Both the position numbers and the translations under genes were made by a program. The notes under the pieces are model-generated. The model worked only from the letters and a program-made list of their open reading frames with translations. It ran no database searches and was not told where the DNA came from. DNA of 35,003 bases from a virus, in IMG/VR virus record IMGVR_UViG_3300042731_001024, positions 1-35,003 of that record; one strand, 5' to 3'. Below, one piece after another: positions 1 through 28,713 of this stretch. The first letter of the stretch is position 1; every line of letters begins with the position of its first letter.

Positions 1-382
1 CATTTATATTCGCCTTTCTTATTTTTGAACCAGCACCTGAAGCGAATCGTGCTGTACCTCTTGCCATCCGAATCGCCATTTTTGATTTAGATGGGTCGGG
101 GTCATAATATGCTTCGTCAATATAGACGATGGAATGTTCGGTTAGTGCGAGTTCCTCTTCGTCTAAGAATTCGATGAGCATTCTACCGTTACCAGTTCGT
201 GCTTCATCGTATATGAGTACATCACTTCCTTGTGACACTTCAGTGTCATTGTTGTCACGAATTAACGTACCAACACCTGAGTACTCTTTAACATCACCTA
301 TGGGGTTAGCGTGAACTAACCCCACCAATGATAAATTAAGAATCGTTAGCTGAATCTTTTTGATTAAGTTGGATAACTGCAT
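1..382 (-). CDS. FecR-domain exported protein (3' end outside window)
   Basis: The reading frame opens with an ATG at 382 and stays open to base 1, giving 127 codons without a stop. It overlaps the end of the curlin-like gene by 47 nt in another frame. Residues 1-25 look like a signal peptide with a basic start (SNLIKK), a hydrophobic core and a VHA cleavage site. The following residues, roughly 30-120, match a FecR domain: GTLIRDN, a TGNGRMLIEF segment, EHSIVYIDE, then a YDPDPSKSKMAIRMARGTARF stretch. In bacterial FecR proteins these segments form small beta repeats in the periplasm. I infer a periplasmic partner of the CsgG/CsgF/curlin-like set because it is last in that gene run. Its function is unknown, and no cognate FecI sigma factor is visible. 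Confidence 0.72.
   Translation of the reverse strand, partial: MQLSNLIKKIQLTILNLSLVGLVHANPIGDVKEYSGVGTLIRDNNDTEVSQGSDVLIYDEARTGNGRMLIEFLDEEELALTEHSIVYIDEAYYDPDPSKSKMAIRMARGTARFASGAGSKIRKANIN
301..324 (-). other. Perfect 9-bp hairpin inside the FecR-like gene
   Basis: TGGGGTTAG and CTAACCCCA flank a 6-nt loop. The hairpin lies within the codons for the end of the predicted signal peptide, about 60 nt after the start codon. No T-run follows on the minus strand, so it is not an obvious terminator. It could slow translation or attenuate transcription (inference). Confidence 0.45.
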
Positions 383-1070
383 TGTCTGAAGTAACATCTA
401 ATACAATGATACCAGCAGGACTTGAACATCCTGTTGCACCTGTTGGACAAGTACCTGATATCTGATTTATATCTACGTCAGCACTATCACCAGTTAAGTC
501 AACTGTAAGTGAATGTGCTTCGTCATTCTGCAATGTGTTAATGTTATTTGAATCTCCAGTAACTTCGAAGTTCCATACAACATCATCACTCTCCCAATCT
601 ATATCAAAAACGTTTGAACTACCGATTAGAATCAAATCTGCATCTAATCTTTCTGCACTAAAAGCATAACCTTGGTCAAGGTCGAATGTATTACTCGAAC
701 CTGTAACGTCAAAGTTAATATCTGAACTGTCAGCACTTCCGATATATCCAATATTCCAATCGACTTCATTTGAGTCACCAGTAAAGTCCAATTTATAGAC
801 TGAACTATCTGACACAACAGGCCCAAATAGAACGTTGTTATTTCCTACGAAATCTAAATCAAATTCTAAACTAGAACCAGTGATACTCATTGCAGATAAA
901 CTACCTGAACTTGCATCGTCACCACCAACTTTGTTACCAAAACCTATTTGGTCTACGTAAAGTTTTAAGGTGTCACCAGTCTGAGTGATTTTGATTTCGT
1001 TATCATCAGTGGATTGTGCGAAAACTAAAGATGTCGACATTAATAAAATTAAACTAATTAGTTTCTTCAT
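336..1070 (-). CDS. Secreted curlin-like (CsgA/CsgB-like) repeat protein, candidate amyloid substrate
   Basis: The 244-aa protein starts at an ATG with an AAGGA ribosome site and begins with a signal peptide (MKKLISLILL..., cleavage near VFA at residue 18). The mature part is acidic and made of about eight imperfect units of 20-27 residues. Each has alternating hydrophobic residues around a G-x-x-N or G-x-S turn: GFGNKV, GNNNVL, GDSNEV, GSSNTF, GSSNVF, GDSNNI, GDSADV. Curlin repeats of CsgA/CsgB share this G-x-x-N core but normally carry flanking Gln/Ser ladders. Here Q appears mainly near the C-terminus (INQ, QLNQ). A CPTGATGC loop holds the only two cysteines. It sits directly after csgG and overlaps it by 17 nt. 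I infer that it is the substrate of the phage CsgG/CsgF pore; amyloid formation is not proven. A generic beta-solenoid is the alternative. Confidence 0.68.
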   Translation of the reverse strand: MKKLISLILLMSTSLVFAQSTDDNEIKITQTGDTLKLYVDQIGFGNKVGGDDASSGSLSAMSITGSSLEFDLDFVGNNNVLFGPVVSDSSVYKLDFTGDSNEVDWNIGYIGSADSSDINFDVTGSSNTFDLDQGYAFSAERLDADLILIGSSNVFDIDWESDDVVWNFEVTGDSNNINTLQNDEAHSLTVDLTGDSADVDINQISGTCPTGATGCSSPAGIIVLDVTSDNAVIQLNQKDSANDS

Positions 1071-2034
1071 TTTCGATTTCCTTTTCGATTAAAGGATGTT
1101 TAGCATTTGCACCGTTATATTGATGTGGGTGCCTATGTCCATCCTCGATTACCCAATAGCCTCTATCATGCCCTTGGTATATTAATTCCAGCACCGCCGC
1201 TTCAATTGCAGTTCTCACTGCATATGTTACGGATTCATTATTACCCACACCGTCTTCATACTCCACTAGTTGAGTACCTTGTTCTATAAACCTGAAGACA
1301 TCTCCAGTAGAACCATAAGAAAGGATAGTCTTTCTTGTTTGGACGTTCAATAATACTTCACCAGTTAAAACAGACACAGCTCTCATAGAAACGGTTACTG
1401 CATCTCTCCTATACTGTTTTACATATCCAATGCCAAGTGTCCTTGCGCCTCGTCCACCTGACTCTAAATTGGTATCATAACCAATTACTCCCCCTTCTAT
1501 TATCATACCAGCGAATAGAAGTGGTTGTAAACCTTGTGGGGTTTCCCCCGTTGACCTTGCGTAGTCGTCTCTTGCACTACGTATAATTTGTCTCTCACGA
1601 ACTAGATGGTCAATCCCGTTCCTTTCTGCAACTCTAAACCATGTACCACCACCTGCTGTCTTGAGTGCATCGATAACCATCTCGACACCACCTTGCGTGA
1701 CTGCAGTTGAGAAGTCTGCAATTCCTTCTCTTGCCTTTCGTTGACCAGTCTTATCTTGAAACTGATACACTGCAACGATAGGTCTTTCTTGTGCTTTAGG
1801 TAAAGCAAGAAGTTCTAGATAACTTGGTAGTTTTACAACTTCGGGATTATCGACACAAATATATTTTCTTGCCATCGATTTTTGTACACCCGTTACTACG
1901 TCCTTATTCCATCCTTCAGCATACTTTCCAGCACGGTCATTACAATCTCTAGGTTGGTCACTCCACTGAGGGAATGAAGCACAGCCTGTCAACAAAATGA
2001 CACTCAGTAGTAGGGAATGCAATTTACGTACCAT
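1054..2034 (-). CDS. csgG: CsgG-like outer-membrane curli secretion lipoprotein
   Basis: The 326-aa protein starts at an ATG with a GGAGG ribosome site 6 nt upstream. Residues 1-18 form a lipoprotein signal with lipobox LTGC (Cys18). The body follows the CsgG family closely: VAVYQFQDKTGQ, the FSTAVTQG segment, VERQ-like VRERQIIRSARD, an IIEGGVIGYDTN strand, the SGGRGARTLGIG hairpin, KTILSYGSTGDVFRFIE and a C-terminal GHDRGYW motif. In Escherichia coli, CsgG is a nonameric lipid-anchored beta-barrel pore that exports curlin subunits across the outer membrane. The length is about 50 residues over the usual, through an N-terminal insert rich in charged residues and a longer C-terminus. It lies between csgF and the curlin-like gene, as expected for a working export unit. 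A phage role in lysis, superinfection exclusion or cell aggregation is possible but unproven. Confidence 0.93.
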   Translation of the reverse strand: MVRKLHSLLLSVILLTGCASFPQWSDQPRDCNDRAGKYAEGWNKDVVTGVQKSMARKYICVDNPEVVKLPSYLELLALPKAQERPIVAVYQFQDKTGQRKAREGIADFSTAVTQGGVEMVIDALKTAGGGTWFRVAERNGIDHLVRERQIIRSARDDYARSTGETPQGLQPLLFAGMIIEGGVIGYDTNLESGGRGARTLGIGYVKQYRRDAVTVSMRAVSVLTGEVLLNVQTRKTILSYGSTGDVFRFIEQGTQLVEYEDGVGNNESVTYAVRTAIEAAVLELIYQGHDRGYWVIEDGHRHPHQYNGANAKHPLIEKEIENEETN

Positions 2035-2036
2035 TT

Positions 2037-2516
2037 CTAGCCTCCATCGGGGTCTTGTGCAAAATTACCAGTTCCTACAGGTATTTCTACAATAGTTTCA
2101 GAACCATCTTCTGCAACGATTGTTAGTCTGATAAACTCAGCACCTGATTCATCGGTAATAACTTCCCATGTGATAGTGTTTCCTTCTAGAATAAAGGAAC
2201 CGAATCCAGCAGGATTATCATTTGCAAACATAGACTCAACTAATTGTTTTGCAAACTGAGCATAGATTCTGCTTTCTAGGTTACGTATAAATTTAGCGAG
2301 TGTAGAGTTTTCTGCTTCTCTCTCTGCTGCTTTACGAGCAGCCTCAAGAGAATCCTCTATCGCCTTTTTACGTGAATGTTCTTGGTTCTCGATTGTAAGA
2401 TAATGGGCACCAGTGCCTATTCCCGAGAAACTTGGGTTTTTAAACTTATGAACGATTTCCGTAGCGGATGCGTTTACCCCTACGAACATCATTGTGATTA
2501 ATAGTATCTTTTGCAT
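2037..2516 (-). CDS. csgF: CsgF-like curli assembly factor
   Basis: I chose the ATG at 2516 (159 aa) because it has a GGAG site 8 nt upstream and gives a clean signal peptide (MQKILLITMM..., cleavage near NASA at residue 18). The mature N-terminus reads IVHKFKNPSFSG, the CsgF hallmark F-x-N-P-x-F segment that plugs the CsgG pore, followed by an alanine- and glutamate-rich helix (about 45-85) and a beta-rich C-terminal half (ITWEVITDE, FIRLTIVAEDG, TIVEIPVGTG) as in CsgF. In E. coli, CsgF binds CsgG and couples secretion to nucleation at the cell surface. The stop is 2 nt before the csgG start, so the pair is translationally linked. Its first 71 nt overlap the end of the radical SAM gene. Confidence 0.9.
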   Translation of the reverse strand: MQKILLITMMFVGVNASATEIVHKFKNPSFSGIGTGAHYLTIENQEHSRKKAIEDSLEAARKAAEREAENSTLAKFIRNLESRIYAQFAKQLVESMFANDNPAGFGSFILEGNTITWEVITDESGAEFIRLTIVAEDGSETIVEIPVGTGNFAQDPDGG

Positions 2517-3312
2517 ATAAAATCTCCACAGCATTAATAAGTTCTACACCTTTTTTGTAATTCTTAGAATCAACTTCGGGTTTTAGACTTGACCAATTCT
2601 CCATCTTCGGAGGCCATGGACATTTCTTACACATGTCTAAAGGAGTGTCACGTTCTACATAACTTACAACATCCTCTAAGTTTTCATAACTACACAAATC
2701 TGATTTTTCATTCATCGAGATTGTGCAATGATATAATCCCTCATTGGTTAATGTTAGGCAATTATCTTTTTGCCAACATGCATTCCAATTTTCTTCTGCC
2801 GTATTCTGTTTACCTTCCCCATATTGTTCAAACATATTCTGAGGCCAGTATTCAATGTCGACATACTTTTTTAAATGTTCATGTAATCCTGAATGTACAA
2901 TCTTTTCATCGATTGGCATATTTGGATACACCGACATTATTACATTATCAAACAATTTAGTTGTTTCTATTACACTAGGTGTAAAATTCAATCCGTTTGT
3001 TACAAGAGTCAGTTTCTTGTATAGCCCCTTTTGAGTTCTCAAGTAGGTAACTATATCGTTAAACTGTTTGTGTAGTGTCGGTTCACCACCCAAAATTTTT
3101 AACTCTTGAACAGTAACACATAATCTGTTCAAGTTTGCAACTATGTCTTTGACATCTTGTAGTGTCATAAGACCTATTGTTACTTTACCCTTATAATCTA
3201 AAACACTACATCCTTTGCAGTTTAGATTACAAGCATTAATAATGTATAAGTCGTAACTACCTTTTAGTAGTTTTCTTTTTTGTTTGTTCAAGGGCTTTCT
3301 CTGCTTCTGCAT
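2446..3312 (-). CDS. Radical SAM protein with SPASM-like C-terminal cysteines
   Basis: The protein carries the radical SAM cluster motif CNLNCKGC (C-x3-C-x2-C, about residues 28-35 from the ATG at 3312), an ILGGEPTLH segment for SAM binding and a TNGLNF strand. This is the expected order of a radical SAM barrel. The last third has extra cysteines (ACWQKDNC, HCTIS, LCSY, MCKKCPW), resembling SPASM or Twitch regions that hold auxiliary iron-sulfur clusters in peptide-modifying enzymes. No substrate is identifiable. The start is uncertain. An upstream GTG/TTG-type start would extend it to about 3354, and ATG 3312 already overlaps the previous gene by 56 nt. The 3' end overlaps csgF by 71 nt. The position in the curli-like run suggests modification of a co-encoded protein, which is inference. 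Confidence 0.82.
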   Translation of the reverse strand: MQKQRKPLNKQKRKLLKGSYDLYIINACNLNCKGCSVLDYKGKVTIGLMTLQDVKDIVANLNRLCVTVQELKILGGEPTLHKQFNDIVTYLRTQKGLYKKLTLVTNGLNFTPSVIETTKLFDNVIMSVYPNMPIDEKIVHSGLHEHLKKYVDIEYWPQNMFEQYGEGKQNTAEENWNACWQKDNCLTLTNEGLYHCTISMNEKSDLCSYENLEDVVSYVERDTPLDMCKKCPWPPKMENWSSLKPEVDSKNYKKGVELINAVEILYAKDTINHNDVRRGKRIRYGNRS

Positions 3313-3559
3313 CCTTGAGTACTTCTTGTCTTGCACGATACTCAAGAACGACATCGACTTTCTGTTGTAACCTAATCATATCTTGGTCTAACATACGAGT
3401 TTGGTCGATAACACGAATCAATGCCATATGCATTTCTTCCATTTCGGGGTCTATCTTTTCTCCGATAAACCACCACACATAATATATGAAATAACCCATG
3501 CCCATCGCCATGACGATTGGGAATCCGTACTGAGAGACTAAACTAATTACATCTTCCAT
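3257..3559 (-). CDS. Small membrane protein, UviB/BhlA-like (paralog 2)
   Basis: The 100-aa protein starts at the ATG at 3559, which shares bases with the TGA of the preceding gene (TGATG). It begins MEDVISLVSQYGFPI, followed by one membrane segment (about residues 13-33, with MAMGMGYFIYYVWWFI). A charged helical, probably coiled-coil region follows (MIRLQQKVDVVLEYRA), ending in a lysine tail (KKKTTKR). The N-terminal GFP-then-transmembrane pattern resembles UviB/BhlA holin-like proteins. It shares start sequence, length and architecture with its upstream neighbour, so the two look like a tandem duplication. A lysis role fits the location near a holin-like gene but is not demonstrated. Confidence 0.72.
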   Translation of the reverse strand: MEDVISLVSQYGFPIVMAMGMGYFIYYVWWFIGEKIDPEMEEMHMALIRVIDQTRMLDQDMIRLQQKVDVVLEYRARQEVLKDAEAEKALEQTKKKTTKR

Positions 3560-3855
3560 CAATCTCTCCTTACGTCAAGTTTTCCATCTTCTATAAAATT
3601 TTCAGCACGTGCAACTCTCTCGATGTCGGGTCTAAGTTCTAATGCGGCTGATACCAACATATCAATCTTAATCATTTCATTCGACATCGTTCTTGCACGA
3701 TTTTCTAGAGACTTACAGAACATAGTTAACGTTTTTATTTGGTCAACTATACCCTCTAGTATCTGCTTGATTACTAGGAATATAAAGAATCCCATAACGA
3801 GACCACCCGCTACTGGAAATCCTAATTCACTTATCAATAATACTACGTCTTCCAT
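3559..3855 (-). CDS. Small membrane protein, UviB/BhlA-like (paralog 1)
   Basis: The 98-aa protein starts at ATG 3855. It begins MEDVVLLISELGFPVAGG and has a single hydrophobic segment (about residues 10-38, GLVMGFFIFLVIKQIL). A helical region with alternating charges follows (ENRARTMSNEMIKIDMLVSAALELRPD). It is the first gene after a terminator and a TATAAATA late box. That box ends only 6 nt before the ATG, so there is no room for a normal Shine-Dalgarno site, only a weak AGG. It pairs with the following paralog. Hetero-oligomer formation or a holin/antiholin relation are possible readings, neither shown by sequence alone. Confidence 0.7.
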   Translation of the reverse strand: MEDVVLLISELGFPVAGGLVMGFFIFLVIKQILEGIVDQIKTLTMFCKSLENRARTMSNEMIKIDMLVSAALELRPDIERVARAENFIEDGKLDVRRD

Positions 3856-3861
3856 ACCTAC

Positions 3862-3869
3862 TATTTATA
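3862..3869 (-). promoter_or_regulatory. Late promoter box TATAAATA
   Basis: The sequence is a perfect match to the T4 late consensus. It directly follows the T-run of the terminator at 3870-3899 and lies 6 nt upstream of the ATG at 3855. With T4 spacing, the transcript would start 1 nt before the start codon. Confidence 0.75.
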
Positions 3870-3899
3870 TAAAAAAAGGGGCAACCGAAGTCGCCCCTT
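3870..3899 (-). terminator. Rho-independent terminator with UUCG tetraloop
   Basis: On the minus strand, AAGGGGC and GCCCCTT frame an inner G-A-C / G-U-U helix capped by C(UUCG)G, giving about 10 bp. A T7 tract follows. It ends transcription coming from the holin-like and SAP-like genes, and the late promoter box begins at once after the tract. Confidence 0.9.
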
Positions 3900-12184: not shown

Positions 12185-12271
12185 TGGTGCCCTCGCCCAG
12201 ACTCGAACTGGGATGCTAAAAATAGCGAGAGATTTTAAGTCTCTTGTGTCTACCAATTCCACCACGAGGGC
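12185..12271 (-). tRNA. tRNA-Leu (anticodon TAA)
   Basis: The 87-nt gene has a GCCCTCG/CGAGGGC acceptor stem, discriminator A and an encoded CCA. The anticodon arm GAGA-CTTAAAA-TCTC gives anticodon TAA, reading UUA. A long variable arm (CGCTATTTTTAGCA region) confirms a type II leucine tRNA. The T arm is CCCAG/CTGGG with TTCGAGT. UUA is a common codon in this AT-rich genome. Confidence 0.97.
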
Positions 12272-12515: not shown

Positions 12516-12592
12516 TGGCCTCCCCGAGAGGACTCGAACCTCTAACCTACGGTTTAGAAGACCGTTGTTCTATCCAGTTGAACTACGGGGAG
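12516..12592 (-). tRNA. tRNA-Arg (anticodon TCT)
   Basis: The 77-nt gene has a CTCCCCG/CGGGGAG acceptor stem, discriminator G and an encoded CCA. The anticodon arm CGGT-CTTCTAA-ACCG gives TCT, reading AGA. The T arm is AGAGG/CCTCT with TTCGAGT. AGA is frequent in the phage genes here. Composite promoter C begins transcription just 3-4 nt upstream of the mature 5' end. Confidence 0.97.
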
Positions 12593-16890: not shown

Positions 16891-17954
16891 AGATAGTTGT
16901 GTTCATCCAATGCTTCATTATACAAGGTAGTCATCAAATTGTTAAGAGACTTTTTCTTTCCTTGTATTTCTAAACCATCGATGTACTTAGATAGTATAGT
17001 TAGTGTATCTTCTACATCTTCGATTTCATCATCATCAAAGAAGTCCATGTGTTTATTGTCATCTACTACAGAAACATGTAGTGGACTTTGACTATGGATT
17101 TTATCTAAGAACGAATCGAACCAGTAAGGATTGTCTTTGTTTACGACCACTACCTTTACAAACTTACCTTCATACTTACTGTAATCAGCGTTTGAGATAG
17201 TTTCAAATGTCTCCTTTGCATCATCATAAAATGCCTTTTCAAACATAGTAAGAGGATTGTGTACAGGTGTCATTGATTGGTCTTCTGTATCAAAGATGTG
17301 AAAGTATTTGTTATCGCCGTAATCAGACCATGTGAATTGCATCTGAGAACCTAGATAACGAATATTTTTGACCTCGGATTTTTGGTGGAAGTGTCCACTG
17401 TATACCTTATCAAATCTTTTTAAGTAAGTATGGTCTAGTCCATGTTGACACGTCATGCCTGGATGCATCAATGCACCTTCAATCTCAAAGTGTCCCATAC
17501 AAACTGAAGCGGGAGCAGACATCATAAACTCTACTGAGTCTGCATAATTCTCGTTGTTTATCCACGGAACTAAAGCGATATTGGTTCCATCATACTCTTT
17601 AACTTGACACTCTGAAATCACATTGATTTGTGCTTCATTGAATAGTAACAACTCGGGTGCATTCACATCGTTGGTGTTCTTATAATAAGTGTCGTGATTA
17701 CCAATAATCAAGTCCATAGAGATTCCTCTCTCAATAAGAGGTTCAATAAAGTGTGACCTGTTTGCTTTGAGACTTGCAAAGTTTATATACTTACGTCTAT
17801 CGAAGTAATCACCTAAGTGAATAATGTGTTTGATATCATGCTCGTCTAGATATGGGAAGAAGATTTCTTCGTAGAAACGTCCTTGGTATTTGGACATTTC
17901 AATCATATCACCTCTGACACCAGCATGGGTATCATTCAGTATCGCTATTTTCAT
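16887..17954 (-). CDS. 47: Recombination nuclease subunit gp47 (Mre11/SbcD-like)
   Basis: The 355-aa protein (T4 gp47, 339 aa) has the metallophosphoesterase motifs in order: NDTHAG (D8, H10), HLGDYFDRR, IGNHD and SGHFHQKSE. The C-terminal 130 residues are acidic and probably contact the Rad50-like partner. Together with gp46 it forms the end-processing nuclease. Its ATG overlaps the gp55 stop (ATGA), and its stop overlaps gp46, so the three genes form one unit. Confidence 0.96.
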   Translation of the reverse strand: MKIAILNDTHAGVRGDMIEMSKYQGRFYEEIFFPYLDEHDIKHIIHLGDYFDRRKYINFASLKANRSHFIEPLIERGISMDLIIGNHDTYYKNTNDVNAPELLLFNEAQINVISECQVKEYDGTNIALVPWINNENYADSVEFMMSAPASVCMGHFEIEGALMHPGMTCQHGLDHTYLKRFDKVYSGHFHQKSEVKNIRYLGSQMQFTWSDYGDNKYFHIFDTEDQSMTPVHNPLTMFEKAFYDDAKETFETISNADYSKYEGKFVKVVVVNKDNPYWFDSFLDKIHSQSPLHVSVVDDNKHMDFFDDDEIEDVEDTLTILSKYIDGLEIQGKKKSLNNLMTTLYNEALDEHNYL

Positions 17955-18496
17955 TCAGTAAATTTCTCTAAGTTATTCGCTTCTTTCTTTTTCCTTTTTG
18001 ACCTTCTTGGTTCGTACTCAACACGAGTCATGTTTTCTTGCATCCACTCGATGTTGGTATTGGTGAGTGCTGGGTCATGAACTCCATCTATAGTATCGAA
18101 TGCTTCTAGGGTAATGTTTGATGCATCAATAGCTTGTTGCTTAATGTATACCTGTTTTTTCTCCTTTTGAATTCTTCTAAGAAAGGCATAGTAACATATC
18201 TGAGTTACATAAGCAAATGCATTGTTTGATTTTTCAACATTGAAGTTACCTAGGTACTGGATACAATTCTCGATTGCATCACAAATCATTTCGTCCCTAT
18301 AGGTGTAGTTGATGAAGTTGGGTCTTGTAGATAGTCGAGTTGCAATCTTATAGATACACTCTCCTATGTACTCTGACATTTTGGGTGGAGTTTTGTCTTT
18401 TGCTTTTGCCTCGTTTATCTGACCTACATATTCGGCAACAGCAGCAGTAAAGTCCTTGTTGTTAACGTAATGTTCGTTTACTTTTTTTGCAGTCAT
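17951..18496 (-). CDS. 55: Late sigma factor gp55
   Basis: I chose the ATG at 18496 (181 aa; T4 gp55 is 185 aa); an upstream GTG at 18511 is possible. Similarity to T4 gp55 includes HYVNNKDFTAAV, YIGECIYKIATRLSTRPNFINYTYRDEMICDAIENC, and AYVTQICYYAFLRRIQKEKKQ, the sigma region 2-like core that reads the late -10 box. The tail is basic. gp55 directs host RNA polymerase to TATAAATA promoters with gp33 and the gp45 clamp. The boxes listed here are its expected targets, including one upstream of its own gene. Confidence 0.93.
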   Translation of the reverse strand: MTAKKVNEHYVNNKDFTAAVAEYVGQINEAKAKDKTPPKMSEYIGECIYKIATRLSTRPNFINYTYRDEMICDAIENCIQYLGNFNVEKSNNAFAYVTQICYYAFLRRIQKEKKQVYIKQQAIDASNITLEAFDTIDGVHDPALTNTNIEWMQENMTRVEYEPRRSKRKKKEANNLEKFTE

Positions 18497-18542
18497 GTAA
18501 CTATTATACACAAAAACCGTGATATTAAAAGGGGCTTTTTAG

Positions 18543-28705: not shown

Positions 28706-28713
28706 TATTTATA
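28706..28713 (-). promoter_or_regulatory. Late promoter box TATAAATA
   Basis: A perfect late box. It ends 5 nt before the gene 20 ATG. By T4 geometry the mRNA begins at the start codon. Confidence 0.8.

Follow-up and report, generated by a model that had tools for sequence, protein, structure and literature searches.

A predicted late curli-like export operon in an uncultured T4-like marine phage

Curli genes at one end of the contig

We analysed the 35,003-bp virus record IMGVR_UViG_3300042731_001024 (the window), which belongs to an uncultured T4-like marine phage and carries genes for the curli pore CsgG, its adaptor CsgF, a curlin-repeat protein, a FecR-domain protein and a radical SAM protein. 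A first-pass annotation had described these five genes as a complete export unit, and all five are indeed present, near position 1 of the window and on its minus strand. Together with two upstream genes, termed TMb and TMa, and without the radical SAM gene, they probably represent a late-expressed curli-like export system. The nearest isolates by capsid protein are Melnitz (66%), HTVC008M (64%) and Mosig (63%). Protein families were matched using Pfam with family cut-offs, PHROG profiles and NCBIfam, and gene neighbourhoods were compared across 243 viral csgG loci (81 closest and 162 others), which include near-identical contigs and are not independent of each other. The following features were located in the window:

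2–382 (ATG; open reading frame to 397), minus strand: FecR-domain exported protein with an N-terminal signal peptide; the contig end cuts the gene
336–1070, minus strand: curlin-repeat protein CRL1, 244 aa, with signal peptide, candidate secreted fibre subunit (PF07012)
1054–2034, minus strand: CsgG outer-membrane pore lipoprotein with lipobox LLTGC (PF03783)
2037–2516 (open reading frame to 2534), minus strand: CsgF adaptor with signal peptide, FKNPSFSG docking segment and inserted helix (PF10614)
2446–3312 (open reading frame to 3354), minus strand: radical SAM protein (PF04055)
3257–3559, minus strand: TMa, ~100 aa, one N-terminal membrane span (phrog_18771)
3559–3855, minus strand: TMb, a TMa paralogue and first operon gene (phrog_18771)
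3862–3869, minus strand: T4-type late promoter TATAAATA, located 14 nt ahead of the start codon of TMb (window scan)
3876–3899, minus strand: intrinsic terminator at which the upstream transcript ends, immediately ahead of the late promoter (stem-loop and folding energy)

Pore and adaptor retain most of their contact residues

CsgG matched PF03783 with an E-value of 5.5e-49 (166.8 bits; cut-off 20.8) and the E. coli CsgG chains in the PDB at 6.3e-47. CsgF matched PF10614 at 2e-12 (47.8 bits; cut-off 25.8) and, in a profile comparison, E. coli CsgF 6l7a at 6.1e-08. With the curlin-repeat match described below, all three identities given in the first-pass annotation thus lie above the Pfam cut-offs.

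In E. coli, the CsgG residues Asn148, Asp170, Phe206, Phe208 and Gln168 contact CsgF (PMC7304575). The first four correspond to N189, D211, F247 and F249 of the window CsgG and are invariant in five phage CsgGs, while the fifth is altered (Gln168 to R209), so that four of the five mapped contacts are kept. On the adaptor side, alignment showed that F31, N33, P34, F36 and G38 of CsgF match the pore-lining segment, with the F-x-N-P-x-F-x-G pattern retained, and that an added helical stretch is present. The kept contacts speak against a loss of pairing between phage CsgG and CsgF, which has been proposed.

A candidate substrate and a FecR-domain protein

The curlin repeat of CRL1 matched PF07012 at 7.8e-05 (23.0 bits; cut-off 20.7), with weak matches to the NCBIfam CsgA/CsgB models, and a Q-x-G-x2-N motif was invariant among 44 curlin homologs. 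The N-terminus reads as signal-like, and the predicted structure is a beta-solenoid (predicted local distance difference test, pLDDT, 83; predicted template modelling score 0.77), in line with the secreted, solenoid-type repeat protein expected from the first reading. In a second structural look, the top match of the model was the CsgA crystal structure 8c50 (Z 17.1, 197 aligned residues, root-mean-square deviation 8.9). The modelled fold agrees with a curlin and does not amount to proof of one. In the second curlin of HTVC008M (L082:9453-10778), the curlin repeats are preceded by a PA14 domain, which might serve a fibre as a binding module.

The FecR fragment scored 18.0 bits against PF04773, below the cut-off of 24, because the contig ends inside the gene. 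Its intact orthologue in the nearest relative (L002) reached 37.6 bits, and the fragment itself matched phrog_37870 at 8.6e-16, which bears out the FecR-like exported protein named earlier. FecR proteins of the relatives are ~385 aa long. The model of the L002 orthologue shows a signal-like hydrophobic helix at residues 2–20 followed by a FecR domain that resembles the periplasmic domain of anti-sigma/FecR regulators (Foldseek 4m0h and 6ovk, ~1e-3). The C-terminal half is modelled mostly at pLDDT below 60 with no interpretable fold, and Pfam gave no domain besides FecR in this orthologue. We rejected a role as a classical iron-citrate anti-sigma regulator, as the cytoplasmic N-terminal anti-sigma part is missing, and the label 'iron regulator' used in the literature is thereby put in question. 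In a Polaromonas metagenome-assembled genome (MAG; L339), a FecR-domain protein is directly followed by a CHASE2 adenylate cyclase. The same gene pair as in the phages thus occurs in a bacterium, but apart from the csgF-csgG-curlin operon there, and may be a ready-made bacterial unit that was joined to curli genes.

The operon begins with TMb and does not include the radical SAM gene

Across the 243 loci, the order in relatives is TMb-TMa-csgF-csgG-curlin1-FecR-curlin2-CHASE2 cyclase, and it is kept from close to distant phages. The outcome of this neighbourhood comparison, a check suggested in the first-pass annotation, favours its reading: nearly all of these loci have both curlin and FecR, the order is conserved, and genes are missing mainly where contigs stop. 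The operon of the window therefore starts at 3855 with TMb, two genes upstream of the radical SAM gene, and not at 3312. At its other end, a second curlin and a CHASE2 adenylate cyclase (CHASE2 plus guanylate-cyclase catalytic domains) follow FecR in relatives with enough sequence. The window ends in FecR, and its virus is expected to carry both genes beyond base 1, off the contig. Pore, adaptor, curlin and FecR protein thus stand as members of the proposed export unit, while the set noted at first was incomplete at both ends.

The radical SAM protein, whose PF04055 match of 1.5e-10 lies above the Pfam cut-off, is the member that does not hold. Its gene sits between TMa and csgF in 16 of the 81 closest loci and in none of the 162 others. 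A role as curlin modifier or core part was rejected on these counts, and the gene is an optional insert outside the core unit. Ratios of nonsynonymous to synonymous substitution rates (dN/dS) were ~0.04–0.26 across the module genes, compared with six relatives where dS could be estimated, and purifying selection on every module gene excludes chance open reading frames.

TMa and TMb accompany viral csgG

Both small upstream proteins are ~100 aa long, have a single membrane span at the N-terminus and matched phrog_18771 (TMa 4.3e-26, TMb 6.4e-26), and TMb has the lowest dN/dS in the module (0.04–0.07). The pair was present at nearly every csgG locus of the close sets. Reciprocally, among the 56 TMb loci with enough sequence, 54 have csgG nearby; of the remaining two, one carries csgG at another place of its contig and one is a fragment of 25 kb. 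In a wider set, all 59 further TMb loci with room carry csgG. When 18 distant phage records, mostly picked because their csgG neighbourhood seemed to be without TMa/TMb, were searched whole, 12 had TMa/TMb (two copies each) and six shorter records did not. HTVC008M and Melnitz both carry the pair, and neither csgG nor TMa/TMb was found in six related complete phages (Mosig, S-H38, P-RSM6, C48C1, P-TIM40 and S-CAM1). A TMb search in five bacterial genomes, run without a positive control, was empty.

One or two 'histidine kinases' have been described to precede the pelagiphage module (PMC9599517), and from position, size and number these are probably TMa/TMb. However, Pfam gave no kinase family match in any of 59 TMa/TMb members (29 of them TMa homologs), and no histidine is invariant in the alignments, with best columns of 30% and 55%. 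Lacking a kinase domain and a conserved His, TMa/TMb were rejected as histidine kinases; the published label for genes at this position looks wrong. Matches to YvrJ (PF12841) stayed below the cut-off (best E 0.0041 for TMb and 0.044 for TMa; window TMa 13.3 bits versus 29.5), no BhlA model matched either protein, and similarity to the holin family phrog_4898 was weak (1e-4 to 0.03). Judged by sequence, TMa/TMb are most fittingly described as partners to the viral curli module, with no action assigned. More tentatively, and at odds little short of even, they might form a dedicated, so far overlooked inner-membrane component of viral curli systems, inherited together with CsgF/CsgG by very different phages and possibly gating or sensing like CsgE and others do in bacteria, in a curli system that is switched on only late from predicted leaderless mRNAs.

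In two loci (L304 and L310, 3896-6643), TMb-TMa immediately follows the gene for a protein with a TonB C-terminal domain; a SleB-type cell-wall hydrolase is encoded nearby, and curlin and cyclase are on the opposite strand. On the contig of L310, the distance to csgG is ~17 kb.

A T4-type late promoter precedes TMb

On the minus strand before TMb, a terminator (3899–3876) is followed by TATAAATA (3869–3862) and the ATG at 3855. The terminator has a 10-pair stem, a UUCG loop and a T tract (51-nt fold, -17.5 kcal/mol, z -4.3). Since terminator and T4-type late promoter precede TMb, we predict late expression of the module as an operon. TATAAATA has been used as the T4 late promoter sequence (PMC9004378), and we read the open reading frame at 17951–18511 as the gene for sigma-like gp55.

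In an 82-locus set, TATAAATA stood ahead of TMb in 60 of 78 cases, whereas no TMa, CsgF, CsgG or FecR gene was preceded by it. Extending the scan to all loci, it was found within 60 nt upstream of TMb in 120/205 versus 0.012 expected per 60 nt, and again not upstream of TMa, CsgG or FecR. Within the same distance of CsgF it occurred in 67/236, outside the window's own close group. The commonest spacing between the first T of the motif and the start codon is exactly 13 nt (87 of 333 distinct promoter-ATG pairs), and the same distance separates the motif at window position 28713 from the portal gene (start 28700). With such spacing, T4 late-promoter geometry puts the first transcribed nucleotide at the ATG or close to it. 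Leaderless late messages are therefore predicted from sequence in these phages, including that of the window portal gene.

Relation to known curli systems

The core of the module has been published, and the window is a further member of it. Zooming in on earlier work, csgF and csgG were reported in pelagimyophages along with a co-occurring cluster in 2020 (PMC7029224), in agreement with the first-pass annotation. In 2022, csgF, csgG, csgA/B, FecR, a second csgA/B and adenylate cyclase were described in podovirus and myovirus pelagiphages, and expression of the module in metatranscriptomes was reported (PMC9599517). The window shares with this pelagiphage type VIII secretion system module the csgF, csgG, curlin, FecR order and probably the small upstream genes at the same position, and in its relatives the second curlin and adenylate cyclase follow. 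It differs in the radical SAM insert, in a contig cut inside FecR and in an upstream pair that is not kinase-like in any of our tests. What we add are the operon limits, the predicted timing, the association of TMa/TMb with the module and the finding that CsgG-CsgF contacts are retained.

For Melnitz, csgGF was reported in 2022 with csgA/B said to be lacking, and a pinholin or secretin role was proposed (PMC9004378). Contrary to this, the GenBank record of Melnitz (MZ577097.1; L083) annotates, next to csgGF, a pair of curlin-repeat proteins together with a FecR protein and a cyclase, and that of HTVC008M (KC465899) also lists curlin proteins. These findings weaken the view of Melnitz-type CsgF/CsgG as drifted apart and without substrate. 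HTVC008M and the Methylophilales phage Melnitz both have TMb-TMa-csgF-csgG-curlin-FecR-curlin-cyclase as in relatives of the window, but no radical SAM insert, and their CsgG N-terminus is ~40–50 residues shorter. The window CsgG is 49% identical to that of HTVC008M and 43% to that of Melnitz.

Compared with enterobacterial curli (csgBAC/csgDEFG), the phages share CsgG, CsgF, a curlin-repeat substrate and most docking residues. In contrast to the bacterial system, no CsgE was found in the 12 phage records searched for it, no CsgC or CsgD was seen in the neighbourhood, and a FecR protein, a CHASE2 cyclase and TMa/TMb are added; the phage curlin is Asp-rich and lacks the N22 segment.

Proposed function and alternatives

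From the gene content, gene order, promoter motif, conserved domains and contact residues, and co-occurrence observed above, we infer assembly, secretion, fibre formation and in vivo timing as follows. The window would hold the 5' part of a type VIII (curli) operon, TMb-TMa-(radical SAM)-csgF-csgG-curlin1-FecR. Phage late factors would modify the host RNA polymerase, which would then transcribe this operon late in infection from the TATAAATA upstream of TMb. CsgG, CsgF, the curlins and the FecR protein would reach the periplasm through Sec. CsgG would form an outer-membrane pore, with CsgF docked inside via its FKNPSF segment, and TMa/TMb would act in the inner membrane. Solenoid-forming curlins might then exit via the pore and assemble as a coat on the surface of the infected cell, which could stick siblings or debris together or mask receptors. 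Adhesion or aggregation is the benefit that we prefer, although it is a guess and a rather doubtful one.

Several observations weigh against this model. E. coli CsgA carries a glycine-rich N22 targeting segment, and no such segment is visible after the CRL1 signal peptide, which makes recognition of CRL1 by CsgG hard to explain. A Foldseek search with the CRL1 model gave no match at E<=0.001, and in the second look SufB/SufD beta-helices came close behind CsgA (Z 15–16.6, with lower root-mean-square deviation), so that the solenoid alone is not specific. Two of the three CsgG constriction residues differ (Tyr66 to R102 and Asn70 to D107), while Phe71 is kept as F108. No CsgE gate (PF10627) was found in 12 large related phage records, including two complete isolates, in a search that recovered the E. 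coli control. CsgE is an accessory in type VIII secretion, and not essential according to PMC7029224. Finally, no aggregation was seen in Melnitz cultures (PMC9004378).

Among other benefits, a curli-like coat could serve superinfection exclusion by masking the receptors of infected cells, as suggested for pelagiphages in PMC9599517. We consider this role unlikely. Surface export is expected from the gene set, but most exclusion functions act earlier than the conserved late-type promoter would allow; sequence cannot separate this role from stickiness. Less probable still is that the CsgG pore serves to lyse the cell or permeabilise its membranes, following the pinholin idea (PMC9004378), with TMa/TMb assisting it in the manner of holins. 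The late promoter before the module would fit, as would the missing CsgE gate and the phrog_4898 matches in five large csgG-carrying phage records, all ~1–2 kb from csgG at the TMa/TMb position. However, CsgG, as a lipoprotein of the outer membrane, would leave the inner membrane polarised, the curlins, FecR and CsgF contacts are kept and under purifying selection, and four of eight large phage records have a separate SleB-type cell-wall hydrolase elsewhere. The late outer-membrane permeabilisation considered in the first-pass annotation is not the best reading. An uptake pore for nutrients or cofactors, proposed in PMC7029224 and compatible with a gateless CsgG in the 12 records, would leave CsgF, the curlins and the late promoter unexplained and is very improbable. 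A chance grouping of five unrelated cargo genes, which the optional radical SAM gene would fit, can practically be dismissed given the order and co-occurrence of the other genes in the 243 loci.

A late-expressed curli-like export system thus remains our preferred explanation. With the first gene of the predicted late operon defined, the contacts between pore and adaptor intact and a fibre protein encoded by the phage itself, timing, secretion, lysis and adsorption become testable.

Further csgG loci and other window features

Modules of the csgF-csgG-curlin-FecR-cyclase type were also present in virus contigs of up to 337 kb (L194–L243), which look more distant than the published pelagiphages. 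A scan of bacterial genomes returned mostly csgG contigs with phage-like modules inside metagenome bins. Such contigs in MAG bins (L325–L334 and L338), assigned to Sphingobacteriales, Rhodobacteraceae, Flavobacteriales and others, are probably binned phage DNA. In the class of a Xanthobacteraceae MAG, only 4 of 190 genomes had a CsgF match (three over the cut-off), and no FecR or cyclase was found at the short bacterial loci from this search. The 1,499-bp record OR851715.1, named Salmonella phage S.Kent 1-2-1, contains an unannotated 43% CsgG match and may be host DNA. Within the window, genes for tRNA-Leu(taa) and tRNA-Arg(tct) lie on the minus strand at 12185–12271 and 12516–12592, respectively.

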